Of a stretch of DNA of 29,629 nucleotides, positions 164 through 29,382 are shown piece by piece. Both the position numbers and the translations under genes were made by a program. The stretch covers positions 1-29,629 of the IMG/VR virus record IMGVR_UViG_3300027917_000135. One strand, given 5' to 3'. The DNA comes from a virus. The notes beneath the pieces are model-generated. The model searched no databases. It had not been told where the DNA came from and saw only the letters and a program-made list of their open reading frames with translations. How positions within the stretch are numbered: the stretch's first letter is position 1; the number at the start of each line of letters is the position of its first letter.

Positions 164-2488
164 ATGAGCGTAAGTTTTGAAATGAATGGTCTTCTTGCCC
201 GTTTGCTTGCAGAAGAAAAGATCATCGTTCAGCATAAGAAGGTAGATGAGCCTTTTTACGATTTGCAGAATCGCTGTTTGACTCTTCCTATTTGGTCAAA
301 TGCTACTGAAAACGTATATAAGGCTATGGTTTTGCATGAGATTTCCCATGCAATTTGGACTCCACTTGACGAGTGGAAGAAAATGATTAATGGAAATTAT
401 AACGGAATTCCTTCCAATATTATTATGGTAATGGAAGATATTCGTGTAGAAAATCTATGTAAGCTTAAGTACCCCGGTACTCCAAGGATTTTTAATCTTG
501 GGTATGCTGAAATCTACGGAATGGAACAGTTTATGCTGTCTATGGAGCCACAAAAGTATAACTTCCTAGATAGACTTTGCCTGTACTTCAAAGGCAATAA
601 TATTTTTGGCATCAAGTTTTCCAAAGAGGAAAAAAGTATTGTAGAAGCCACTAAGAAGATGACCTCATTTAAGGAAATGATTACCTTAAGTGGAGTGGTG
701 TATGTTCAATGTATGAAAAATATGAGGAATCTTGATAAGACCCCTCGATATAGCTATAATGGATATGATGGTGGAGCTGGAAATTTTTACAATCCAGGAC
801 TCTATACCAAAGATAATACTTTAAAGACTCCTCAAAATAGGTCTTCAATTCCTTTAGTTAATCATGATTTAGATTATGGATTGAATTACGAACGCAGTGT
901 CGCTCCTGAGGAAAAAACATTTGAAATCATGGAATTGGAAGAAGAATTAAATAATGCTATAAATCCATTTTCTATTGATGATTTTGAAGATTTTGATGAA
1001 TCTGATGAATCTGATGAAACTGAAGAATGGGATGATGGTATTGATTTTGATATCAGTTCGGATTTTTGTCCAGAACAAGAAATTAAAAAGTATTATGACG
1101 ACGATGAATACATTGAAAGTGCAAGGGATAAGATTATTTCCTATGTTCTTCAAAGTCTTCAAGATTGTAGTCGAGTATTGACTAATACTAATAGTGATAA
1201 GACTTACGAGTACATTGAAATTCCTCAAATTGATTCAAATGTAATTATTCCGCCAGATATTTATTATGCCCCATTAAAGGAAAAATTCTTTGAATATACA
1301 CACATTGAGCAGAGATACCAGGAGTTTAAATCTAATTCTAAAAAGGATGTAAATTACATGGTAAAAGAGTTTGAAACTAAAAAATCAGCTCGACTATACT
1401 CTAAGATCAAAGAAAGTAAGACCGGAGTTCTTGACTGTGATAAGCTTCATTCTTATCTCTACAATGACGATATTTTCAAGAGAAATCTTATTGTTAAAGA
1501 AGGAAAGAGTCATGGTTTGGTCATTTTCCTAGATTGGTCTGGATCTATGTCCAAAGTAATTGAATCTACAGTTAAACAGTTGTATAAAATTCTCTGGTTC
1601 TGTAGACGACAAAACATTCCATTCAAGGTTTATACTTTTGGGCAAAGTTCTACAAATTATCATTATCAGGATGCTCCAGTTGATCGACTAGACAATAAGA
1701 TGTTTATCTCTCATGATTTTACTTTGTGTGAAATTTTTAATAGTGAAACTAAGAGTTATGAATTTGAAGAACAACTTAAACTGTTCTATTATCTGGCATC
1801 TAGAGTATTAAATTCTGGTTATCCTATGCATTGTATGGGATGGACACCACTATATGAGTCTCTTTTGACACTCAATACTATTATTCCCCAGTTCAAGAAA
1901 AAGTATAATGTTCAAAAGTTAAATTGCATTGTACTTACTGATGGTGAGCCCAACGAGCTTCGTTATATTAGACACGATAAAAAATATCATCAGACTTCTG
2001 TAGAGTATACATATGCGGATATTATTTGCAGTAATGTTAACAGGGATGTTTATCTTATAGATCCAAAAACTAAAGAAACTCATTTCTTGTCATACTTAGG
2101 AAATCGGTATAGTTCATATACTGAAAGTCAGCTTAATGCCATTCTCAATGTTGTGCGATCAAATAATCCAGATTTAAGTATTTCAGCTATTCGCATTCTA
2201 GAATCCCGAGATTTGGGCAGTTTTATTAGTAGATTTATTGCATATGATGATGATGAACTGCGTGGAGAAGTACGATCTAAATGGGAAGCTGAACGTTGGT
2301 TTGTTATTGAGAATGGTGCGTTTGATAAGTTCTTTGCGGTTTCCGAAAAGCTCTTGTACAACACTGTGTTTCCAAAATTCAATAAAGATGATACAAAATC
2401 TGTCATTACTAAGAAGTTTAAACTGATGATGAAAATCAAGACAATGAATAATAAGTTCCTTTCTGATTTTATTGGTATGATCTCGTAA
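164..2488 (+). CDS. VWA-domain protein with HEXXH motif (CobT-like / putative metallopeptidase)
   Basis: A 774-residue protein with three visible parts. Near the N-terminus HEISH (residues 58-62) is a zincin-type HEXXH motif. The middle (about 265-300) is strongly acidic, a run of D/E/S like the acidic linker of cobaltochelatase CobT. From about 450 there is a von Willebrand A domain with a complete-looking MIDAS: D457-W-S459-G-S461 and TDG at 592-594. It sits 90 nt upstream of a CobS/MoxR AAA+ ATPase, the classic partner of VWA proteins; such pairs act as metal-insertion or remodelling machines (family knowledge). Whether it helps a cobaltochelatase, loads another metal, or is a protease is not shown by the sequence. 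No clear Shine-Dalgarno precedes the ATG. Confidence 0.8.
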   Translation: MSVSFEMNGLLARLLAEEKIIVQHKKVDEPFYDLQNRCLTLPIWSNATENVYKAMVLHEISHAIWTPLDEWKKMINGNYNGIPSNIIMVMEDIRVENLCKLKYPGTPRIFNLGYAEIYGMEQFMLSMEPQKYNFLDRLCLYFKGNNIFGIKFSKEEKSIVEATKKMTSFKEMITLSGVVYVQCMKNMRNLDKTPRYSYNGYDGGAGNFYNPGLYTKDNTLKTPQNRSSIPLVNHDLDYGLNYERSVAPEEKTFEIMELEEELNNAINPFSIDDFEDFDESDESDETEEWDDGIDFDISSDFCPEQEIKKYYDDDEYIESARDKIISYVLQSLQDCSRVLTNTNSDKTYEYIEIPQIDSNVIIPPDIYYAPLKEKFFEYTHIEQRYQEFKSNSKKDVNYMVKEFETKKSARLYSKIKESKTGVLDCDKLHSYLYNDDIFKRNLIVKEGKSHGLVIFLDWSGSMSKVIESTVKQLYKILWFCRRQNIPFKVYTFGQSSTNYHYQDAPVDRLDNKMFISHDFTLCEIFNSETKSYEFEEQLKLFYYLASRVLNSGYPMHCMGWTPLYESLLTLNTIIPQFKKKYNVQKLNCIVLTDGEPNELRYIRHDKKYHQTSVEYTYADIICSNVNRDVYLIDPKTKETHFLSYLGNRYSSYTESQLNAILNVVRSNNPDLSISAIRILESRDLGSFISRFIAYDDDELRGEVRSKWEAERWFVIENGAFDKFFAVSEKLLYNTVFPKFNKDDTKSVITKKFKLMMKIKTMNNKFLSDFIGMIS

Positions 2489-2496
2489 CCAATAAA

Positions 2497-2522
2497 CATG
2501 GACGGTAAAAAAACTGTCCATG
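2497..2522 (+). terminator. intergenic hairpin after the VWA gene
   Basis: The arms catggacgg (2497-2505) and ctgtccatg (2514-2522) pair over 9 bp with one G-U, around an A-rich 8-nt loop. No T-run follows, so it may be a transcript-end stabiliser or processing site rather than a classical intrinsic terminator. Similar hairpins occur after other genes of this window. Confidence 0.45.
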
Positions 2523-2578
2523 CTTACCTCCCTTCCTTCAATATTCTGTTAAATTGTACTGTACCCTAATTTTTTATT

Positions 2579-3484
2579 ATGACTTCTAAAAACAAAATTG
2601 AACATCTTGATTCTGAAAATCTGGATGTGCCCGAAATTACCGAAACCTTTGTTCGATATGGTAATTATAATGATTTGAAGAAAATCGTATCCTCTCGTAA
2701 ATTTTTCCCTACATTTATCTCTGGTCCTTCTGGTTGTGGAAAAACTCTTTCGGTAAAGCAAGCATGTGCTGAGCTTCATCGGGAACTTGTTCGTGTAAAC
2801 ATTACTGTAGAAACTGATGAAGACGATCTGATCGGGGGATTCCGTCTGAAAGATGGTGACACTATTTGGCATGATGGTCCTGTAGTTCAGGCTCTCCAAC
2901 GTGGAGCCATTTTGCTCCTGGACGAAATTGACCTGGCATCTAATAAGATCATGTGTCTTCAATCTATTCTTGAAGGTGATGGAGTATTCCTTAAAAAGCT
3001 CGGACATCATGTTTATCCTGCTCCCGGATTCAATGTCATTGCTACTGCAAATACTAAAGGTAAAGGGTCTGAGGACGGTCGCTACATTGGAACTAATGTT
3101 TTGAATGAAGCATTCCTTGATCGGTTTGCTATCACCTTTGATCAAACCTATCCAACAGTTGCCACAGAGTCTAAGATTCTTCGTTCTGTTGCAGAAACTC
3201 TGTCTATTACTGATGATCAGTTCATTACCAACCTTTGTGAATGGGCTTCTCGTATTCGTAAGACTTTTGAGCAGGATCAAGTAGACGAAGTTATTGCTAC
3301 TCGTAGGCTTGTTAATCTTCTTGTTGCGTATTCAATCTATGGCAACAAGGAAAAGGCCCTTAAGCTTGCTGTAAACCGTTTCGATGATTATATTCAAAAA
3401 TCATTTCTTACTCTATACGAAACTCTTGATAAAGATATTCAGTTTGGAGATTCAGTTGATACTGATCCTATGGTATCTCCCTGA
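2579..3484 (+). CDS. cobS: CobS-like MoxR-family AAA+ ATPase
   Basis: A 301-residue AAA+ ATPase with Walker A GPSGCGKT (49-56) and Walker B ILLLDEID (111-118), followed by a sensor-like ATANTKG stretch and the lid helices. The spacing and the GGF..KDGDTIWHDGPV region match the cobaltochelatase CobS/MoxR branch. CobS is widespread in T4-like cyanophages; in bacteria CobS works with CobT and CobN to insert cobalt into the corrin ring. Only CobS and a CobT-like VWA protein are visible here, so the phage pair may boost host cobalamin synthesis (relevant if the reductase or host enzymes need B12) or remodel another complex. A terminator follows, making these two genes a unit. Confidence 0.85.
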   Translation: MTSKNKIEHLDSENLDVPEITETFVRYGNYNDLKKIVSSRKFFPTFISGPSGCGKTLSVKQACAELHRELVRVNITVETDEDDLIGGFRLKDGDTIWHDGPVVQALQRGAILLLDEIDLASNKIMCLQSILEGDGVFLKKLGHHVYPAPGFNVIATANTKGKGSEDGRYIGTNVLNEAFLDRFAITFDQTYPTVATESKILRSVAETLSITDDQFITNLCEWASRIRKTFEQDQVDEVIATRRLVNLLVAYSIYGNKEKALKLAVNRFDDYIQKSFLTLYETLDKDIQFGDSVDTDPMVSP

Positions 3485-8354: not shown

Positions 8355-9878
8355 ATGAGTACAAAGTTTTATACCAATGTAAAACAATATGGAAATAACT
8401 TTTTAGTCAGGGGATATGAGGATGGCCAGGAATTTAGAATCAAAGAAAAGTTTAGTCCAAAGCTTTATGTGGCGACAAAGAATAAAACCCCATTCAAGAC
8501 TCTAGATGAAAAGTATGTCAAAGAGATACAGCCAGGGTCAGTCAGAGAATGTAAAGATTTCATGGCCAAATATAAAGATGTAGAAGGATTTGAGATTTAT
8601 GGTAATGACAGGTTTACTTATCAGTACATTTCTGAAACTTATCCAGAAGAAACAATTAATTTTGATATTAAAGAGATTAAATTATATACAATAGACATTG
8701 AAGTTGCATCTGAAAATGGATTTCCCGATCAAGTAGAATGTATTGAAGAAGTTCTTTTAATTACCATACAGGATTACAACACTAAAAAGATTATTACATG
8801 GGGAGTACGACCATTTTATACCGATAAGCCCAATGTTACTTTTATTCACTGTACGGACGAATACGATCTTTTAAATAGATTCTTAGCATATTGGGTAGAT
8901 AATACTCCTGATGTAATTACTGGATGGAATTGTACCTATTATGATATTCCGTATATTTGTGGAAGAATTGAAAAAATTCTGGGTGAAAAAAAACTAAATA
9001 GCTTATCTCCTTGGAAGTCGGTATATTCTAAAGAAGTTATAGATAATAACAAAGTCAACGTTTATTATGATATTGGTGGAGTATCTCAGTTAGACTATAT
9101 GTTGCTTTATAAGAAGTTTACATATGTGACTAGAGAATCGTATAGTTTAGATCATATTGCAAGTGTTGAGTTAGGGGAAACTAAACTAGACCACACACAA
9201 TTTGAAACATTTAAAGAGTTTTATAGTGGAGACTTTATTGTTTCACCTGATGAAGATATAGATCCAACTACTATTAGGTATCTAGGAAAGCTTCGGTCAA
9301 TGATATATCAAAGACTAGAAGGCAAAGATCTAATTGAACCTGTAAAAATTAAGGTAAATTTTGCCTCACAAAAACAGATTAAATTTCTTGAAGAAAATAT
9401 TAAGAAATTAGATCTAGGAATCTTAAAATACATTTATGTAATACTTGATGGATACATAAAAAAACAGTGCTGGGATCTATTTACCAATTACAACATCATT
9501 GACGTTGAGCTAGTAGATAAGCTTGAGGATAAATTAAAGTTGGTTGAGCTGGCGATTACTATGGCATATGACGCCAAAGTAAATTATGAAGATGTATTCT
9601 ATCAAGTTAGGATGTGGGACGTAATCATTTACAATTACCTAAAGAAAAGGAATGTTGTAGTACCAAAATCACAGAGTACAGTCAAGAAAGAAAAGTATCC
9701 GGGAGCTTATGTAAAGGAGCCAATACCTGGAAAATATGATTACGTTGTGAACTTTGACTTAGACTCTCTGTATCCTCACATTATTATGCAATATAGCATT
9801 AGTCCAGAGACTCTTGTTCCTATTGATGAAATAAACGATAGAATATCTCAACTTGAAGCACAGTTGGCAAATGCCTGA
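8355..9878 (+). CDS. 43: DNA polymerase gp43, N-terminal fragment (exonuclease + motif A)
   Basis: 507 residues covering the first half of a T4-type family B polymerase. The 3'-5' exonuclease motifs are present: Exo I TIDIEV (D114, E116), Exo II GWNCTYYDIPY (D197), Exo III NYNIIDVELVD (D383). Palm motif A FDLDSLYP (467-474) is followed by SISPETL, after which the protein leaves the family pattern: about 20 residues (VPIDEINDRISQLEAQLANA) and a stop. Motifs B and C are encoded 3 kb downstream (12920-14305). Residues about 294-370 are an insertion relative to T4 gp43 between Exo II and Exo III. A terminator follows immediately. The frame is not simply damaged: the tail has a regular heptad pattern (I-I-I-L-L spaced 3,4,3,4). 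Confidence 0.92.
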   Translation: MSTKFYTNVKQYGNNFLVRGYEDGQEFRIKEKFSPKLYVATKNKTPFKTLDEKYVKEIQPGSVRECKDFMAKYKDVEGFEIYGNDRFTYQYISETYPEETINFDIKEIKLYTIDIEVASENGFPDQVECIEEVLLITIQDYNTKKIITWGVRPFYTDKPNVTFIHCTDEYDLLNRFLAYWVDNTPDVITGWNCTYYDIPYICGRIEKILGEKKLNSLSPWKSVYSKEVIDNNKVNVYYDIGGVSQLDYMLLYKKFTYVTRESYSLDHIASVELGETKLDHTQFETFKEFYSGDFIVSPDEDIDPTTIRYLGKLRSMIYQRLEGKDLIEPVKIKVNFASQKQIKFLEENIKKLDLGILKYIYVILDGYIKKQCWDLFTNYNIIDVELVDKLEDKLKLVELAITMAYDAKVNYEDVFYQVRMWDVIIYNYLKKRNVVVPKSQSTVKKEKYPGAYVKEPIPGKYDYVVNFDLDSLYPHIIMQYSISPETLVPIDEINDRISQLEAQLANA

Positions 9879-12919: not shown

Positions 12920-14305
12920 ATGAGTTGGAAAGATCCAAATGAAATGACAAAAGAAGAGATTCTATCGGAGATAGAGTCTCTTAAAAAAATAAGAAAGATA
13001 TCATCTGAAATAACAGTTGAAGGACTTTTGAATAAAGTATATGATCTAAGTCCCCTTCGGGACTTAGATTTTACTATTGCGCCTAATGGAGCAATCTACA
13101 GGCGGGTCAATGGGGTTCTTCCTGCACTTATGGAAAAGATGTACAATGAAAGAGTCATCTATAAGACTAAGATGATCGAAGAAAAGAAGAAACTAGAAAG
13201 ACTGGAGAATGATAAAAATGTAGATGCTTCAATCATAACAAAAACTAAAAAAGAGATTTCTAGATGCCATAATATTCAGATGGCAAAAAAGATTTCTTTA
13301 AATTCCGCCTATGGATCTTGTGGCAATGAATACTTTAGGTATTATAAGTTAGATAATGCAAAAGCCATTACATACTCAGGGAAGTGTGTAATTCAGTGGA
13401 TTGAAAGGAAATTTAATCAGTATCTTAATACAATAGTAAAGACAGAAGGTGTTGACTATGTAATTGCATCCGACACTGATAGTATTTACTTGAATATTGG
13501 TCCTCTTGTAGATTTGGTTTATCAAGGTAAAGAACGAAACGAAGAGTCAATTATCAACTTCTTAGACAAAGTATGTAAGACAAAGTTTGATGAATTTATT
13601 AAGAAGTCCTTTAATGAGCTTGGTGAATATATGAATGTTCATAAACAGAAAATGTCTATGAAAAGAGAAAATATTGCTAGCACAGGGATTTGGACTTCTA
13701 AAAAACATTATATTTTGAATGTTTGGGATAGTGAAGGGGTTAGGTATCAGCATCCTAAGTTAAAAATGATTGGCATTGAAGCAGTTAAGTCATCTACTCC
13801 TGCTATATGTCGCAAAATGATGAAGGAAACTATAGAACTTATTGTTTCTGGGGCAACTGAAAATGAAGTTATAGATTTTATCGAACAGAAAAAAGAACAA
13901 TTTAAACAGATGCCTATTAATCAAATATCATTTCCTAGAAGTGTTAATAACATAAAAAAATATCATTCATCAGTATCCATATACGCAAAGAGTTGTCCCG
14001 TGCATGTACGGGGTGCATTGTTATACAACAATTACGTTAAGAAGAAAAATTTAACGAACAAATACCCCCTAATAAATAGTGGAGATAAGATTAAATACAT
14101 TTATCTATCCGTTCCTAATCCGATCCATGAGAATATAATTACATATATTCAGAGGTTCCCTAAGGAGCTAGAGCTTGACAGATACATTGATTATGAGCTA
14201 CAATTTGAAAAGAGTTTCCTCAAGCCAATCGAAAGTATATTAAATGTAATTGGATGGAAATCGCAAAAAACAAACACATTAAGTCAATTTTTAGTATCAA
14301 GATAA
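12920..14305 (+). CDS. 43: DNA polymerase gp43, C-terminal fragment (motifs B and C, thumb)
   Basis: 461 residues completing gp43. Family sequence resumes at about residue 31 (ITVEGLLNKV, then IAPNGAIYRR). Motif B is KKISLNSAYGSCGNEY (123-138), motif C ASDTDSIYL (D185, D187), followed by the KKHYILNVWD segment and the thumb. The first 30 residues do not belong to the polymerase core; they are charged and helical (EEILSEIESLKKI) and could pair with the tail of the N-terminal fragment. There is no intein C-terminus (no H-N junction). Neither fragment alone can polymerise because catalytic aspartates are divided between motif A and motif C. No Shine-Dalgarno is visible. Confidence 0.92.
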   Translation: MSWKDPNEMTKEEILSEIESLKKIRKISSEITVEGLLNKVYDLSPLRDLDFTIAPNGAIYRRVNGVLPALMEKMYNERVIYKTKMIEEKKKLERLENDKNVDASIITKTKKEISRCHNIQMAKKISLNSAYGSCGNEYFRYYKLDNAKAITYSGKCVIQWIERKFNQYLNTIVKTEGVDYVIASDTDSIYLNIGPLVDLVYQGKERNEESIINFLDKVCKTKFDEFIKKSFNELGEYMNVHKQKMSMKRENIASTGIWTSKKHYILNVWDSEGVRYQHPKLKMIGIEAVKSSTPAICRKMMKETIELIVSGATENEVIDFIEQKKEQFKQMPINQISFPRSVNNIKKYHSSVSIYAKSCPVHVRGALLYNNYVKKKNLTNKYPLINSGDKIKYIYLSVPNPIHENIITYIQRFPKELELDRYIDYELQFEKSFLKPIESILNVIGWKSQKTNTLSQFLVSR

Positions 14306-19712: not shown

Positions 19713-20888
19713 ATGACACAAAGAATTTTTGAAGAATTACCTCAAAGAAAATTTCAGGGACCTGCTACACCCCCACCTGCTTCAAATGATGGAGAGAGTA
19801 GAGAAAATCAACCAAAAGATGAAAGTTCTGAGAAGAAAATTCGTCAAGCAGTGTATGACATTAGATATAGGGCTAGAAGAGAAGATATCCCATTGATGAC
19901 TGCATTCTCACAGTATATGCAGAATAGTAGTCTTTCTGGACCAGAACAGATTGCAGTTAAACAAAAATTAGCAGGAAAATCTAGTGTAACTGAAGGTCAA
20001 GAGTTTGATACTTTTGTTGCGGATTCTGTTTCTAATGCTTTACGTCGAGTTTTTGTTGACAAGATTCCTTCTTTTAGAGAAGAAGATATAGAAGAGTTGA
20101 CTCCATTGTTTTCTGAGGAAATAGTAAAAAACTCTAAAGGTGAAGTTAAATATAAAGTTAGAGTTAATGATAAGAATGGCACTTCATATGTTAGATATGC
20201 TACTAGAGAAAAAATTAGTCAGTTAAGATCTAACCCACAAATTTTAAGTGTGGAATTAACTGATTATGGTACACCATATGAGGGGGAGAAGGGCAAGAAG
20301 AAACTTGACCCAGTTGGTAAAGAAGATTCTGATGTGAATAATGATGGGAAGGTTAATAACCAAGATGCATACATTAAGAATAAAAGAACAGTTATTTCTA
20401 AAGAAATAGCAAAAGAAGGATATGTTATTGAAGCATCTAAAACTAAAAAAGACAAGTCAAATGAACCTATTGATGTAATGCCACCAAATAAGAAAAATAT
20501 AATCAATATTAACCCAATAGAGACTGAATTATCTAACGCAACTCATTCTGAGTCTAGAGGTTATTATAAATTCATTAATGATCTTCAAGAAGCCGCAGTA
20601 AGTAAAAATCAAAGAAGACTTGCTGGCCAGGCACTAGCTTACTTAAGAGGGGAAAATCCCGATGCTAGTGATGAAGTTAAGGAAATGTCAAAAATGGGAG
20701 AAGCTGAATTAAGAAAATTTGCGGGAACACCTGAGAAAGGTCTTCCTGAAAAAGTAGAAGAAAACTGTGATTCTACTATGAGTAAAGATAAAGATGATCG
20801 TGATAAGTATGCAAAAAGAAACTTAATTAAAAATAGATTAAGAGCAGCTACTGGAATTAAAGATCCAATTGTTATAGAAGCTCCATAA
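19713..20888 (+). CDS. probable virion protein with dockerin-like and DUF3008-like segments
   Basis: 391 residues, highly charged and low in aromatics. Residues about 207-225 (SDVNNDGKVNNQDAYIKNKR) read like one half of a type I dockerin calcium loop (D207, N209, D211, D218). Residues about 285-349 contain FINDLQEAAVSKNQRRLAGQ... and FAGTPEKGLPEKV, the layout of DUF3008 proteins found as separate small proteins in T4-like phages; LQE/A could also be a gp21 cleavage site. It starts four bases after the nucleotidyltransferase. Relatives in cyanophages are, as I recall, structural; the exact place in the particle is unknown. Confidence 0.65.
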   Translation: MTQRIFEELPQRKFQGPATPPPASNDGESRENQPKDESSEKKIRQAVYDIRYRARREDIPLMTAFSQYMQNSSLSGPEQIAVKQKLAGKSSVTEGQEFDTFVADSVSNALRRVFVDKIPSFREEDIEELTPLFSEEIVKNSKGEVKYKVRVNDKNGTSYVRYATREKISQLRSNPQILSVELTDYGTPYEGEKGKKKLDPVGKEDSDVNNDGKVNNQDAYIKNKRTVISKEIAKEGYVIEASKTKKDKSNEPIDVMPPNKKNIININPIETELSNATHSESRGYYKFINDLQEAAVSKNQRRLAGQALAYLRGENPDASDEVKEMSKMGEAELRKFAGTPEKGLPEKVEENCDSTMSKDKDDRDKYAKRNLIKNRLRAATGIKDPIVIEAP

Positions 20889-23970: not shown

Positions 23971-25023
23971 ATGAACAAAGATACTAAAGTAGTAAAGAGA
24001 TCTGGAAATCAAGAATATCTAGATCTGAATAAATTACATATAATGGTAGAAGAAGCATGTAAAGATTTAGCTGGGGTATCTGCTTCACAAGTTGAGATAA
24101 CTTCTGGAATTCAGTTTTATGATGGTATTACAACAAAAGAAATTCAAGAGATTTTAATTCGTTCTGCATCAGATTTAATCAGTCTTGAGCATCCAAACTA
24201 TCAATATGTTGCTGCAAGACTTCTTTTGTTTTCAATTCGTAAACAGATTTATGGTCGTCAAAGAGACCTTCCTGATCTAGAAACACATATTATTAATTGT
24301 GTTCAATCTAAAGTATATGATGAAGAAATCCTCTCAAATTATTCTAAAGAAGAGATTGAAAAAGCTAACACTTACATCGATCATGAACGGGACATGCTAT
24401 TCACTTACGCAGGTTTACGTCAGGTCGTTGATAAATACCTTGTGCAAGATCGAAGCAGTGGTGGAGTATATGAAACTCCACAGTTTATGTACATGATGAT
24501 TGCTTTGACTAAGTTCTCAAGATACCCTAAAGAAATTAGATTATCTTATGTTAAGAGGTATTACGATGCGATTTCCAAACACAAAATCAACATTCCTACA
24601 CCAATCATGGCAGGGGTTAGAACCTCACTTCGTCAATTTGCAAGTTGCGTTCTTGTTGATGTTGATGACACCCTCCCTAGTATTGAGTCTAGTGATTCTG
24701 CAATCTTTAGGTATGTTGCGCAAAGAGCAGGAATTGGTATCAACCCAGGCAGAATCCGTGGCATCAACAGTAAAATCAGAGGTGGAGAAGTTATTCACAC
24801 AGGTGTTATTCCATTCCTCAAAAAGTTTGAAGCAACTGTCAGATCTTGCACTCAAAATGGCATCAGAGGTGGATGTTTTGACTCAGAATCTGAAGTTTTG
24901 ATAGTAGAATCTATTGAAATTGATGGAAAAACATATGATATGGATGATGAGATTGATGGGGTTAAAGTTATTGATATTATAAATAATCATAACGGAAATA
25001 ATACCATTATGCATAAAGAATAA
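23971..25023 (+). CDS. nrdA: ribonucleotide reductase NrdA, part 1, fused to intein-1 N-fragment
   Basis: 350 residues. Residues 1-301 are NrdA: an ATP-cone (VVKRSGNQEYLDLNKL onward), then the ten-stranded barrel start with the catalytic-pair cysteine in FASCVLVDVDD, ending CTQNGIRGG. Residue C302 begins an intein: CFDSESEVLIVES is block A, then 49 residues in all to the stop (24874-25020). The extein resumes as SATVHFPIWHQE at 26414. A homing endonuclease gene starts on the very next base after the stop (TAAATG). Class I alpha subunits reduce NDPs to dNDPs. Confidence 0.93.
   Translation: MNKDTKVVKRSGNQEYLDLNKLHIMVEEACKDLAGVSASQVEITSGIQFYDGITTKEIQEILIRSASDLISLEHPNYQYVAARLLLFSIRKQIYGRQRDLPDLETHIINCVQSKVYDEEILSNYSKEEIEKANTYIDHERDMLFTYAGLRQVVDKYLVQDRSSGGVYETPQFMYMMIALTKFSRYPKEIRLSYVKRYYDAISKHKINIPTPIMAGVRTSLRQFASCVLVDVDDTLPSIESSDSAIFRYVAQRAGIGINPGRIRGINSKIRGGEVIHTGVIPFLKKFEATVRSCTQNGIRGGCFDSESEVLIVESIEIDGKTYDMDDEIDGVKVIDIINNHNGNNTIMHKE
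24874..25020 (+). mobile_element. split intein 1, N-fragment (49 residues)
   Basis: Begins with the nucleophilic cysteine after RGG and contains only block A. Block B is not here but on the C-fragment, so the break is much earlier than the usual site between blocks B and F. Confidence 0.85.
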
Positions 25024-26019
25024 ATGGAAAACTTAATTTGGACCTCGGAAAATCTTAAAAAAAGTAAGTCTCCATTTAGTATATACTTTTATCTTAAAAA
25101 AACGGATGGAGATTATAATAGTGCTAAAAAACTTTATGATGATTTTTTAGAAAAAAAATCTCCATTTAGGGATCCAAAAAATAGACCCAATACTATTGAT
25201 TATTGGGTCTTTAGGGGTTATTCCGAAGATGATGCTAAACTAAAAGTTAGTGAGGTTCAATCAAAACCTATTGATTTGAATGAATATATCAAAAAATATG
25301 GAGAAGAAGAAGGATTAGAAAAATACAATAAAAGAAAAGAGAATCTACAAAATAGATTTGAAGTAGAAATTAAGAATACGCAAACAAAAATACAATGTGA
25401 TTATGATACTGCCTATGATATTGTGTGCAACAAAAAACGAAAATGTTCTCCAAGAACTCTTGACTATTGGATGTCTAAGGGATTTTCAATGGAAGAATCC
25501 AAAGAATTAGTATCTAAACATCAAAAAGAAAATAGTCCAAGATCTGTTTATTATTGGGTTAAAATCGGATATAGTGAAGATGATGCATTAATTAAAGTTA
25601 GAGAATATCAAGATAATATATCAATAGAATCTATTTCAAAAAGATATTCTTGTGATAAAATGACTGCACTTGATATACAAGAATCTATTCTTGAAAAGGT
25701 AAAATTTACAAGAATCAAAAAGAATATGAATATTGATATTGCTAATGATTATGAATATTTTGTTTATAAGAAATTGGTAAATAAAGAAACTCAAAAAACT
25801 TTAAGACTGAATAAAAAAACATTTGTTAAAAAAAATAAATCAGATTCTTTAGATCATAAGTATAGTATTTTTTGGGGGTTTTATAATGACGTTCCTGCAA
25901 AAATAATTGGTTCAATTCATAATTTAGAATATATTTCTTTATCTGAAAATTGTAAAAAACAAACAAATTGCTCTATAGATCTTAAAACTTTATTGGAAAG
26001 GTATGAAAATGGAAATTAA
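25024..26019 (+). CDS. free-standing homing endonuclease inside split intein 1
   Basis: 331 residues. Three copies of a module of about 23 residues, T-[IL]-D-Y-W-x-x-x-G-[YF]-S-[EM]-[DE]-[DE], at about 57-79, 145-167 and 174-196, look like DNA-reading helices. A KYGEEEGLEKYNKR segment lies between them. The C-terminus has an HNH-like nuclease signature: D277-H278-K, then N300-L-E and N309-x-x-K. No LAGLIDADG motif is seen. The composition is very A-rich compared with the flanking NrdA coding sequence. It would cut intein-free nrdA alleles to spread the whole arrangement. Confidence 0.82.
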   Translation: MENLIWTSENLKKSKSPFSIYFYLKKTDGDYNSAKKLYDDFLEKKSPFRDPKNRPNTIDYWVFRGYSEDDAKLKVSEVQSKPIDLNEYIKKYGEEEGLEKYNKRKENLQNRFEVEIKNTQTKIQCDYDTAYDIVCNKKRKCSPRTLDYWMSKGFSMEESKELVSKHQKENSPRSVYYWVKIGYSEDDALIKVREYQDNISIESISKRYSCDKMTALDIQESILEKVKFTRIKKNMNIDIANDYEYFVYKKLVNKETQKTLRLNKKTFVKKNKSDSLDHKYSIFWGFYNDVPAKIIGSIHNLEYISLSENCKKQTNCSIDLKTLLERYENGN

Positions 26020-26413
26020 AATAAATCTCACAAAGAAAAAAATCTCTAATATTTCTGTGGGAGATAATGTTTATTGTTATGATGAATTTAATGACTTGTT
26101 TTGTGTAAATAAAGTTTCTAATACTTTTACACCAACTATCAAAAAGAATTATCAAGAAAAAATCATTATTGGTGATAAAGAAACATTGTATACTTCAAGT
26201 ATTCATCCTTTTTATGATTCTAAAAATAAAGTATGGAAGGAAGCACAGGAAATTGAAGATATTTATGGAATAGATGAAACTGGTAAAGAAGTGATTGTTA
26301 AAAACGATCATTCTTATACTTCACAAATTGATGAAACTTTTTATGATTTTACTGTAGATCATTATCATAATTATTTTGTTGGTAAAAATAATACTTTTGT
26401 TTTAACTCATAAT
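26003..26413 (+). mobile_element. split intein 1, C-fragment (about 137 residues)
   Basis: Carries blocks B, F and G. The final residues VLTHN followed by S are a canonical intein C-terminus and +1 nucleophile. Confidence 0.85.
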
Positions 26414-27715
26414 TCTGCAACTGTCCATTTTCCAATATGGCATCAAGAAATAGAAGATATTTTAGTTCTTAAAAACAATAAAGGAACTGAAGATAATCGT
26501 GTTCGTAAATTAGACTATTCAATTCAATTAAGTAAAATATTCTATGAAAGGTTTATTCAAGACGGTGAAATTACACTTTTCTCCCCGCATGATGTACCTG
26601 GATTATATGATTCTTTTGGAACGGACAAGTTTGACGATCTCTATGTTTCATATGAGAAAGATCCGACCATTAAGAAAAAGACTGTTAAGGCACAAGAACT
26701 TATTCTTACTCTCCTCAAAGAACGTGCTGAAACGGGTCGTATCTATATTATGAACATTGACCATTGTAATTCTCATAGTTCATTTAAGGATCAGATTACA
26801 ATGTCAAACCTTTGCGCCGAAATAACTTTGCCGTCTACACCACTTCAACACATTGATGATGACAATGAATCCGAAATCGCAACGTGCATTCTATCTGCAA
26901 TCAACGTTGGTAAAGTGAAGTCTGATGAAGAATTGGAAGAACTTTGTGATCTTGCAGTTCGTTCTTTAGATGAACTGATTGACTATCAAGATTATCCAGT
27001 TAAGGCAGCAGAAAACTTCACAAAACGTCGTCGTGCTCTTGGAATTGGTTATATTGGTCTTGCTCATTACCTCGCAAAACTTGGATTTAATTACGATTCT
27101 CAAGAAGCATGGGATGCTGTTCATAGTCTTTCTGAAAGTTTTCAGTATTACCTATTAAAGGCATCTAATCAACTTGCAAAAGAAAAGGGTCATTGTGAAT
27201 ACTTTAGTCGTACTAAGTATGCTGAAGGAATTCTTCCAATTGATACCTATAAAAAAGAAGTAGACAAAATTTCATCAATTCCATTACAGCATGATTGGGA
27301 ATCTCTTAGGGCATCTATCCTACAATACGGTCTTAGGAACTCAACATTGTCCGCACAAATGCCAAGTGAATCTTGTCTTTTTTGGGAACATAAAATAATG
27401 ACTTCAGAAGGTGAATTTGATTTTCACCAAATTTGCGAAATGAATAATATTGATTGGAAAACAATTGAAATGAAGGATCTTGTTGGGTGGCATAATTTGA
27501 TTAATCCAATTCAAGTACCAACTTTAGATGGTCGTAAACAAGTTGATAAAATTTATTATAACGGTATGAAAGAGGTTATTACTTTAGTTATGGAAAATGG
27601 GAAGGAAATTAAATGTACTCCTACTCATAAGTTTTTGGTTAAAGGTGAATTTGAGAATGAAATTTGGAAATGTGCTTGTGATTTGACTGAGGATGATGAT
27701 ATAATGGAGTTCTGA
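26003..27715 (+). CDS. nrdA: NrdA middle part flanked by intein-1 C-fragment and intein-2 N-fragment
   Basis: 570 residues in three segments. Residues 1-137 (26003-26413) are the C-part of intein 1: ISVGDNVYCYDE, block B-like LYTSSIHPFYD, block F FYDFTVDHYHNYFVG, and the H-N end, with Ser at +1. Residues 138-457 (26414-27373) are NrdA extein, including NLCAEITLPSTP and ATCILSAINVG, which carry the catalytic cysteines, ending AQMPSES. Residues 458-570 (27374-27712) are the N-part of intein 2, starting CLFWEHKIM. The start overlaps the endonuclease gene by 17 nt; an ATG at 26009 is also possible and better spaced from AAAGG. This ORF must splice at both ends. Confidence 0.92.
   Translation: MKMEIKINLTKKKISNISVGDNVYCYDEFNDLFCVNKVSNTFTPTIKKNYQEKIIIGDKETLYTSSIHPFYDSKNKVWKEAQEIEDIYGIDETGKEVIVKNDHSYTSQIDETFYDFTVDHYHNYFVGKNNTFVLTHNSATVHFPIWHQEIEDILVLKNNKGTEDNRVRKLDYSIQLSKIFYERFIQDGEITLFSPHDVPGLYDSFGTDKFDDLYVSYEKDPTIKKKTVKAQELILTLLKERAETGRIYIMNIDHCNSHSSFKDQITMSNLCAEITLPSTPLQHIDDDNESEIATCILSAINVGKVKSDEELEELCDLAVRSLDELIDYQDYPVKAAENFTKRRRALGIGYIGLAHYLAKLGFNYDSQEAWDAVHSLSESFQYYLLKASNQLAKEKGHCEYFSRTKYAEGILPIDTYKKEVDKISSIPLQHDWESLRASILQYGLRNSTLSAQMPSESCLFWEHKIMTSEGEFDFHQICEMNNIDWKTIEMKDLVGWHNLINPIQVPTLDGRKQVDKIYYNGMKEVITLVMENGKEIKCTPTHKFLVKGEFENEIWKCACDLTEDDDIMEF
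27374..27712 (+). mobile_element. split intein 2, N-fragment (113 residues)
   Basis: Starts with Cys after MPSES and contains block A plus block B (IKCTPTHKFLV), ending LTEDDDIMEF: a conventional N-intein length. Confidence 0.87.
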
Positions 27716-27721
27716 TTATAA

Positions 27722-27769
27722 AGCGTAAATGCCTAAAAACACAAATAAAATATAGAGGGCATCTACGCT
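27722..27769 (+). repeat. inverted repeat / stem-loop before the second homing endonuclease
   Basis: agcgtaaatgcc (27722-27733) pairs with ggcatctacgct (27758-27769), 11 of 12 positions, with a 24-nt loop. It fills the only gap between intein-2 N-fragment and the endonuclease gene, and ends 10 bases before the ATG. Confidence 0.75.
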
Positions 27770-27779
27770 ATTTACACTT

Positions 27780-28856
27780 ATGCAAAAAATATGCAAAATT
27801 CTTACTAATAAATTTAATGTTACAGATCCGAAAAGTTTTATTCAAGAAATAAAAAAAACTGGATATGTAACAAAGAACTATCGTTTTCTTGAAAATATTT
27901 TTTTAGAACTTCCTCCTGAAAAATTTAACCAAAAAATTATATTAAAATTAGTTAAATTTGTCTCTGAGTATAAAAAATCAAAAATTTCATTATCATACGA
28001 ACCTATGTATTGGTCTTTGCGAAAAAATATTCCATTAGATGAATCGCAAAAAATTGTAGATGATTACAAATCAAACAAATCAACTTCTAAAAATGGATTT
28101 ATAAAAAGACACGGAAAAAATAAAGGAAGTGAGATGTATCAAACTTTTCAAAAAAGTAGTGCATATTCATCTTCCGATGAGTGGTTTATTAAAAAATATG
28201 GAGAAAAGTGGAAAGAACAAAAAGAATACGATATGCGTCGTAAATCAAAAAGGTGTTTAGAATACTGGACTTATCGTGGTTATACCTTAGAAGAATCCAA
28301 AATAAAAGTATGCGAATATCAAATATCCACATCCGGTGTTCATAAAAAATATTATGAAGAAAGAGGTTATAGTGATGAAGAAATTAATGTGATTTTAACT
28401 CATATTAATCATAAGAAGAAAAATCATATAAGAAATACTAATTATCTAAAAGAAAAATATCCAGATTCTTGGAAGGAAATATATTTAGAATCTTCTGAGA
28501 AATATAGAAAAAGAATGGAAGAATTAGGAGTTTGGATTGAAAAAAGTATTATTGATGATTTTAAGAAATATAAAAGTCTTGTAAATAGATATACGAATGA
28601 AAGTTTATTATTTTATGGTAAACTTGTTGAAAAGTTAGAAATGAGATCTAAAGATTTCCATTTAGATCATAAGTATTCAATTAAAATGGGATTTATTAAC
28701 GACATTGATCCTAAAATTATAGGATCGGTGATTAATGTGGAAATCATTCCATCAAAAATTAATTCTTCTAAAAAAGAAAAATGTTCAATCACAAAACAAC
28801 AATTAATTAAAGAATACACCAAATTTAAGGAGAAAAATGAAAGTAAAGCAAATTAA
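27780..28856 (+). CDS. free-standing homing endonuclease inside split intein 2
   Basis: 358 residues, paralogous to the endonuclease at 25024. The C-terminal nuclease signature is D296-H297-K, then N319-V-E and N328-x-x-K-K. The modules CLEYWTYRGYTLEESKIKV (about 159-177) and a looser EPMYWSLRK...DESQKIV (about 74-93) recur, with FIKRHGKNKGSEMY and FIKKYGEKWKEQ between them. The N-terminal 70 residues are unique. Very A-rich. The stop lies 20 nt inside the next ORF. Confidence 0.82.
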   Translation: MQKICKILTNKFNVTDPKSFIQEIKKTGYVTKNYRFLENIFLELPPEKFNQKIILKLVKFVSEYKKSKISLSYEPMYWSLRKNIPLDESQKIVDDYKSNKSTSKNGFIKRHGKNKGSEMYQTFQKSSAYSSSDEWFIKKYGEKWKEQKEYDMRRKSKRCLEYWTYRGYTLEESKIKVCEYQISTSGVHKKYYEERGYSDEEINVILTHINHKKKNHIRNTNYLKEKYPDSWKEIYLESSEKYRKRMEELGVWIEKSIIDDFKKYKSLVNRYTNESLLFYGKLVEKLEMRSKDFHLDHKYSIKMGFINDIDPKIIGSVINVEIIPSKINSSKKEKCSITKQQLIKEYTKFKEKNESKAN

Positions 28857-28941
28857 ATTTACAGGAGAAGCACTTCCAACCTATGATATAGAAGTTCCTG
28901 ATGTTCATCACTATAATTGTGAGGGACTAGTTTCTCATAAC
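28837..28941 (+). mobile_element. split intein 2, C-fragment (35 residues)
   Basis: A 35-residue C-intein ending in H-N before Ser, the standard length for naturally split inteins. Confidence 0.88.
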
Positions 28942-29382
28942 AGTTCAGTAGTATCAAACGCAACCAATGGAATTGAACCCCCCAGAGACTTCTTGTCCAT
29001 TAAGAAATCCAAAAAAGGTCCTCTTAAGCAAATTGTTCCACAGTATCAATCTCTTAAGAACCATTATACGCTTCTTTGGGATATGCCTAGCAATCATGGT
29101 TATATCAATATTGTTGCTGTGATGCAGAAGTTCTTTGACCAAGCAATTTCTGCTAATACCAGTTATAATCCAGAGAACTACCCAAATAATGAGGTTCCTG
29201 TGAGTGTTCTTGCACATGATTTACTGTATTATTATTCAGTTGGTGCAAAAACACTTTATTATCAAAATACTTATGATATTAAATCTGATGAGGTAGTAGA
29301 TGACCCAAAACAAGAACTTCAATCTTTACTAAATGACATGTCAAAATCTGATCAAGAAAATTGTGAGAGTTGCACTGTTTAA
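28837..29382 (+). CDS. nrdA: intein-2 C-fragment fused to NrdA C-terminal part
   Basis: 181 residues. Residues 1-35 (28837-28941) are the C-intein with block F YDIEVPDVHHYNCEG and the end LVSHN, +1 Ser. The extein then runs SSVVSNATNGIEPPR to the C-terminus, which ends in NCESCTV: the redox cysteine pair that reloads the active site. AAGGAG lies just before the ATG. Joined with the other parts, NrdA would be 301+320+146 = 767 residues, close to the usual size (T4 NrdA 754). Confidence 0.92.
   Translation: MKVKQIKFTGEALPTYDIEVPDVHHYNCEGLVSHNSSVVSNATNGIEPPRDFLSIKKSKKGPLKQIVPQYQSLKNHYTLLWDMPSNHGYINIVAVMQKFFDQAISANTSYNPENYPNNEVPVSVLAHDLLYYYSVGAKTLYYQNTYDIKSDEVVDDPKQELQSLLNDMSKSDQENCESCTV

Follow-up and report, generated by a model that had tools for sequence, protein, structure and literature searches.

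An early-split intein in nrdA of a marine T4-like cyanophage: proposed origin by insertion of an HNH-type endonuclease gene and apparent re-joining in a relative

Introduction

The nrdA gene carried by a 29.6-kb piece of a marine T4-like cyanophage (IMG/VR virus record IMGVR_UViG_3300027917_000135, positions 1 to 29,629; this whole stretch of DNA is referred to as the window) is divided into three pieces with two split inteins between them, each break holding an endonuclease gene. In the first of these inteins (intein 1) the break comes before block B, which is located in the C-terminal fragment (Int-C), block A being in a short N-terminal fragment (Int-N). We propose that this split intein derives from an unbroken ancestor at the same nrdA site, that an endonuclease gene was inserted in one of its loops, that the fragments splice in trans and that the endonuclease is made late and spreads the cassette by homing (probability about 0.86). 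The features that can be read from the sequence include the anatomy of the intein, the complementarity of its pieces, their conservation, the occurrence of empty and unbroken alleles and a spread separate from that of the second intein (intein 2).

In the proposed course of events, the ancestor would have been an unbroken intein with a long loop after the first strand of the Hint hairpin, and an HNH homing endonuclease gene, equipped with a stop, a start and a late promoter of its own, would have been inserted into that loop. The present products would be an N-terminal part of NrdA fused to Int-N (49 residues), the free endonuclease, and Int-C (135 residues) fused to the next part of NrdA. Int-N would thread into the nearly complete Hint domain of Int-C, taking the place of the first hairpin, and splicing in trans through Cys1 and Ser+1, with intein 2 acting likewise downstream, would yield an intact NrdA. 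The endonuclease, made late, would cut intein-less nrdA genes, and repair would copy the cassette formed by Int-N, endonuclease and Int-C. At least one later re-fusion would have occurred, in the viral contig L007. In this scheme we infer that the fragments splice in trans, that the endonuclease cleaves the empty site and is expressed late, and that the steps took place in the order given.

The shortness of one half makes early-split inteins valuable tools for protein labelling; to our knowledge they are rare, and how they originate is poorly explained. At one nrdA site, split alleles occur next to unbroken and empty ones and to one that appears to have been re-joined; both the origin and the reversal of the split are thereby directly testable, and this natural allele series points to how the rare early-split inteins arise. 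The fragments of intein 1 represent a new early-split candidate of the Cys1/Ser+1 type for which L007 offers a matched natural cis control. Two features appear to be new here, namely the apparent in-frame re-joining in L007 and the T4-type late promoter motif embedded in Int-N.

Anatomy of intein 1 and position of the break

Int-N of intein 1 (CFDSESEVLIVESIEIDGKTYDMDDEIDGVKVIDIINNHNGNNTIMHKE, 49 residues from the Cys) is encoded at 24874-25020 on the plus strand and closed by a TAA stop at 25021-25023. Int-C, which ends LTHN|S, extends on the same strand from 26009 (135 residues; preferred ATG) or possibly 26003 (137 residues) to 26413, and its open reading frame (ORF) overlaps the last 11 nucleotides (nt) of the endonuclease gene. 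Each fragment has its own ORF, in which it is joined to a part of NrdA, and the same is found in four lineages. Int-C contains ISNISVGDNVYCYDE, the strand motif ISNISVGD, block B (TSSIHPFY, 26192-26215) and blocks F and G (26339-26413, ending THN). The preliminary description of this locus, made from the sequence alone, had given Int-N 49 residues with block A only and Int-C about 137 residues with ISNISVGDNVYCYDE and blocks B, F and G; the coordinates are exact and all of these elements were located. Zero matches to Pfam or NCBIfam models were obtained for Int-N, and a profile search for a block B in this fragment, which would have contradicted the early split, detected none.

Alone, Int-C covers profile positions 9-136 of the 137 of PT-HINT (PF07591; E 5e-11), it exceeds the cut-off of intein_Cterm (TIGR01443), and phmmer aligns it to residues 20-137 of 2lwy, the structure of a 138-residue bacterial intein-like (BIL) domain. 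The Hint core, in turn, takes only about 21 of the 49 residues of Int-N (block A and the first hairpin strand, residues 1-21, which are all that the L007 intein needs), residues 22-49 being a loop extension. These alignments place the break in the loop that links Hint strands two and three, the first two strands of the hairpin, which is the position of the engineered S1 split.

The catalytic residues are retained in all copies of intein 1. Cys1 of block A is present in the window and in all relatives; block B (TxxH) reads TSSIHPFY in Int-C of the window, L004 and L011 and TSNIHPFY in L010, its histidine aligning with the same histidine in 2lwy and 8w20; and the D and H of block F together with block G are found as FYDFTVDHYHNYFV...LTHN|S. 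On the basis of these block motifs, intein 1 is predicted to be a naturally split intein of the class 1 type, capable of trans-splicing.

An unbroken intein at the same site

Campylobacter phage IBB_35 carries an unbroken 169-residue intein at the nrdA site of intein 1 (PMC3322345). Int-N of the window aligns with it without gaps over residues 1-38 (E 2e-5) and the remainder is covered by Int-C, from the I.L.KKK segment onward; at the break, Int-N is longer by only about 11 residues and Int-C by 4. Since Int-N and Int-C together align across the IBB_35 intein, no Hint segment appears to be missing from intein 1; a missing part, looked for as a possible refutation of the early split, was not found by sequence. 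The two inteins share the NrdA insertion site, the long loop and about 34–36% identity in the Int-C part, but that of IBB_35 is unbroken and without endonuclease whereas that of the window is split and holds one.

Relatives of Int-C were limited to two entries of IBB_35 among 4048 phage records with an nrdA match. A search of viral contigs with the own patterns of the IBB_35 intein provided no relatives, and a scan of bacterial genomes gave distant Hint domains only.

Split relatives and independence of the two breaks

In IMG/VR the same split arrangement occurs in three more lineages (L004, L010 and L011-L015, the last with a contig of about 250 kb), the endonucleases of which are 84%, 72% and 64% identical, respectively, to that of the window. 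A 49-residue Int-N, a stop, the endonuclease and an overlapping Int-C are constant across all four split lineages; because the series of Int-N, stop, endonuclease ORF and Int-C recurs in three other divergent lineages, the split is not a product of chance or of sequencing error.

Intein 2, located downstream in the same gene, is broken at the canonical place between blocks B and F, as the preliminary description had it. It comprises an Int-N of 113 residues with block B (27374-27712, feature to 27715; TIGR01445), a second homing endonuclease of the same family (27780..28856, 358 residues, 28% identical to the first) and an Int-C of 35 residues (28837..28941), all on the plus strand. The leader of this second gene (27716-27779) contains an inverted repeat, GCGTAAATGCC ... 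GGCATCTACGC, that may form a translation-blocking hairpin; the motif TATAAATA, described below for intein 1, does not occur there.

The two inteins are distributed independently of each other. L004 and L010 have intein 1 and an empty intein-2 site, and L007 also has intein 1 without intein 2; L022-L024 have intein 2 and an empty intein-1 site (RGGSATV.FPIWH); both are found together in the window and L011-L015. The intein-2 site is occupied by an unbroken intein in IBB_35 and, in Campylobacter phage WX1, by a split intein whose endonuclease belongs to the same family. As each of the two inteins is found both with and without the other and unbroken relatives are known for each, the suggestion of a breakage event separate from that of intein 2 gains support, and the two breaks were probably made by related enzymes. 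A third, unbroken intein similar to the NrdA-1 type is present at the NrdA MSNLC site in L012 (4974-7139; CVAGDTKIEIEIFVKD...NGVLVSN|C) and not in L011.

Substitution rates were compared between lineages. Synonymous divergence (dS) of the exteins ranges from about 1.4 to saturation, and that of the intein core and endonuclease is mostly 0.6–1.2 (1.4 in one pair); in the four split lineages the ratio of nonsynonymous to synonymous divergence (dN/dS) of intein and endonuclease is mostly 0.1–0.3, indicating purifying selection. The lower dS and the low dN/dS indicate a cassette that is of more recent origin than its host genes and maintained by selection, a pattern as expected for the horizontal spread of a still-working homing element.

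These data bear on whether the intein halves still splice. NrdA could instead consist of three chains held together unspliced, the Hint pieces being remnants, as a genes-in-pieces NrdA is active without splicing in T4-like phages (NrdA-a/NrdA-b of Aeromonas phage Aeh1; PMC3653736) and as L007 has a further nrdA interruption that lacks intein motifs. However, catalytic blocks that stay intact in four lineages and an intein dN/dS of about 0.1–0.3 are unexpected for remnants, and the insertion lies exactly at the intein junction (Cys1 ... HN|Ser), which makes this explanation very improbable.

An apparently re-joined form in L007

In L007 this intein is found, again at the nrdA site of intein 1, as a single open frame of 150 residues (...VESVEINGTNY-LSKKKISNISVGD...). 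Four elements of the window are absent from it: the tail of Int-N, its stop, the endonuclease and the start of Int-C. Its C part is 90% identical to that of the split L004 and 82% to that of the window, while identity among the split lineages themselves goes down to 63–66% (L004 and the window compared with L010 and L011). In bootstrapped trees built by the unweighted pair group method with arithmetic mean (UPGMA), L007 is nested among the split forms in 100% of replicates. Zero residues link L007 alone with IBB_35, as against six that link L011 alone, and the long loop that the unbroken IBB_35 intein keeps is not present in L007.

As L007 is nested by distance, shares no residues with IBB_35 alone and lacks the long loop, the likeliest order would be an unbroken intein with a long loop, its splitting by insertion, and the re-joining of L007 by an in-frame deletion. 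The position of L007 was judged from distances, residues shared with the outgroup and loop length, a likelihood tree rooted with IBB_35 being undecided (outgroup branch too long). If L007 were the ancestral unbroken form, to which the endonuclease was added later, no re-fusion would be needed; the distances, the residues and the loop all run counter to this order, which we regard as unlikely.

Several observations weigh against the reading proposed here. The tree with IBB_35 as outgroup does not reject a split-only clade that excludes L007 (approximately unbiased test, p-AU 0.40), and L007 is a single contig, the junction being seen there alone. The AlphaFold model of the Hint domain (unbroken L007 intein, nine rows) reached a predicted local distance difference test score (pLDDT) of 41 and was discarded as unusable, so that the loop position of the break rests on alignment with Hint families. 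In addition, the whole endonuclease gave no significant match to solved structures by sequence profile or by Foldseek.

A junction-pattern search for more unbroken alleles retrieved L007 itself only. L064, from a different sample, is 97.6% identical over 5 kb and starts within the intein, past the junction. The further nrdA interruption of L007 (2300-3400), in which no intein motifs were found, follows an N part that ends ...PIQHIDQKPNTMKMKVKVEKDEVNDYKKYIQNNGGVLYDHE and contains a GIY-YIG-like ORF (2472-3245); the next ORF has extra residues before CILSAINVGK, in a layout that resembles the genes-in-pieces NrdA of Aeh1.

A late promoter motif within Int-N

A T4-type late promoter motif, TATAAATA, is located inside Int-N (24978..24985, plus strand), 39 nt before the ATG of the endonuclease, and is kept in the four split lineages. 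The motif has four copies in the window, all on the plus strand and 33–39 nt before ORFs (at 19713, 20954, 21236 and 25024), a placement comparable to which (25–45 nt before an ORF of at least 60 residues) is found for 2% of random positions and 4% for a similar A/T 8-mer. Over-representation of the motif was rejected (4 copies found, 5.4 expected), its placement alone being striking.

Downstream of the motif there is a small conserved hairpin, CATAACGG/CC[A/G]TTATG (24988..25011, plus strand; 87.5% of cells paired), for which covariation was not detected among four sequences. Late transcripts would begin in its 5' arm, which is suggestive only. In I-TevI and segB of T4 and mobE of Aeh1, a late promoter is combined with a hairpin formed by early transcripts only (PMC2988022), and a control of the same kind is plausible by analogy for the endonuclease of intein 1.

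The reason why residues 22-49 of Int-N have been kept may be this promoter. Alternatively, the tail could serve as a docking segment that helps the fragments meet: its protein sequence (DEIDGVKVIDIINNHNGNKTIM) is conserved across four lineages, and it is absent from the unbroken L007 intein. Conservation is nevertheless highest at TATAAATA and the hairpin bases, and the first half of the loop is similar in the IBB_35 intein, which is not split, so docking is considered a possible but less favoured role. Codon conservation in the tail is only slightly above that of the rest of the intein (8/13 vs 5/12 and 39/70) and, since this excess is small, no strong constraint at the DNA level is claimed beyond the promoter and hairpin bases.

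The endonuclease

The gene between the halves of intein 1 (25024..26019, plus strand) opens with the codon that follows the TAA of Int-N, without a change of frame, and encodes 331 residues; its nearest group is phrog_5104, with function unassigned, and comparison with Pfam and NCBIfam gave nothing convincing. A putative HNH core is recognized at residues ~274-317 (25843-25974, plus strand) on the basis of invariant residues and structural matches. The family alignment shows invariant D277 H278, G296, N300, N309 and K312, an HNH-like signature (DH...N...N..K). The model of the protein (pLDDT 76) is helical, its C-terminal part best matching HNH domains, and in a second look (VIA) residues 240-326 matched the HNH domain of Gme (4h9d) and that of Nme Cas9, at Z scores of only 5.2 and 2.8, respectively. 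With fair confidence, sequence signature and model indicate an HNH-type endonuclease of a family without Pfam model. The HNH part is preceded by three copies of a YW..(R/K)G(Y/F)S.(D/E)(D/E)(A/S)k..V...Q repeat, for which there is no Pfam model either; these helical repeats (YW..GYSE.EA type) are probably DNA-binding modules.

Members of this endonuclease family occur as free-standing genes and in the canonically split NrdA intein 2 of L016-L018, L022-L024, L037 and L045, and C-terminal intein pieces are found downstream of family endonucleases also in L029 and L056.

Early-split terminase inteins

Related endonucleases are associated with terminase inteins as well. In L053 an Int-N of 31 residues is followed by the endonuclease and an Int-C of 109 residues; in L067 and L069 the endonuclease at the early position and the terminase C part are in one frame; and in L068 the endonuclease follows an early terminase Int-N, the C part not being adjacent. 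As these inteins show the break at the same position, an early split beside such an endonuclease is recurrent and not a single accident. The initial characterization of the early split as rare, with AceL-TerL as the known comparison, can thus be refined: the comparison holds, and in company with such an endonuclease the arrangement recurs, in the terminase type too.

Two of these loci have peculiarities of their own. The early-split terminase Int-C of L067 (2790-4330) ends NIRNKN|C and is devoid of the penultimate histidine, and in L069 (2971-5214) the endonuclease, Int-C and terminase C part downstream of the early-split Int-N form one frame, the endonuclease appearing to be fused to Int-C.

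Comparison with known split inteins

Fractured genes, in which phage split inteins (e.g., in nrdA) hold an endonuclease gene between their halves, were reportedly described by Dassa et al. in 2009; these inteins are said to be split at the canonical place and to be accompanied by endonucleases of the Vsr-like EDxHD family. Intein 1 shares with them the location of the halves in a phage gene such as nrdA and the endonuclease in between, but it is split before block B and its endonuclease is of the HNH type.

The atypically split inteins AceL-TerL and GOS-TerL have an Int-N of 25 and 37 residues, respectively (PMC11766414). They have in common with intein 1 a natural split, in a phage gene, that comes soon after block A and leaves block B to Int-C, and IMG/VR relatives of this type (L053, L067, L069) also have a related HNH endonuclease at the early position; such a gene is not described for AceL-TerL/GOS-TerL in the secondary literature, to which our coverage extends. 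They differ in the host gene, which is terminase instead of nrdA, and in the Int-C, that of intein 1 being closest to PT-HINT/BIL Hint domains; Int-N of intein 1 is also longer and has the late promoter motif embedded. Judging from gene, Hint lineage and best matches (2lwy and PT-HINT), intein 1 is placed outside the AceL-TerL family proper. Intein 1 combines an early split like that of AceL-TerL/GOS-TerL with an endonuclease between the halves like that of fractured genes.

Two other systems are comparable. The PolB16 OarG intein (Int-N of 15 residues, Int-C of 168; PMC10189870) likewise has an early natural split, but is a cysteine-less Ser1/Ser+1 intein in contrast to the Cys1/Ser+1 pair and usual block B histidine of intein 1. 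Engineered S1 split inteins are broken between the second and third Hint strands, with an Int-N of 10–12 residues (PMC3620165); the position is the same as in intein 1, but there the break is natural.

According to a published view, the endonuclease domains of inteins are all inserted at one conserved place, as in any other loop they would collide with the host protein (PMC6801210). That view concerns fused domains; an endonuclease made as a separate chain avoids the clash, and the loop may be open to it for this reason. We lean towards the broader conclusion that splitting by an endonuclease gene is reversible, one in-frame deletion of endonuclease, loop and stop having taken L007 from trans to cis, and that this HNH superfamily has repeatedly made early-split inteins, in nrdA and terminase, by way of a loop closed to a fused domain.

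The host gene and other features of the window

The exteins are all on the plus strand. The N-extein (23971..24873) comprises the ATP cone and the beginning of the catalytic domain; it ends ...NGIRGG and is 80.7% identical to NrdA of Synechococcus phage S-SM2 up to residue 301; the middle extein (26414..27373) begins at the +1 Ser (SATVHFPIWH...); and the C-extein (28942..29382) starts SSVVSNATNGIEPPR... Elsewhere in the window, no intein motifs were recognized by eye in the DNA polymerase gp43 homolog, which is found as two ORFs (8355-9878 and 12920-14305) with about 3 kb of other genes between them.
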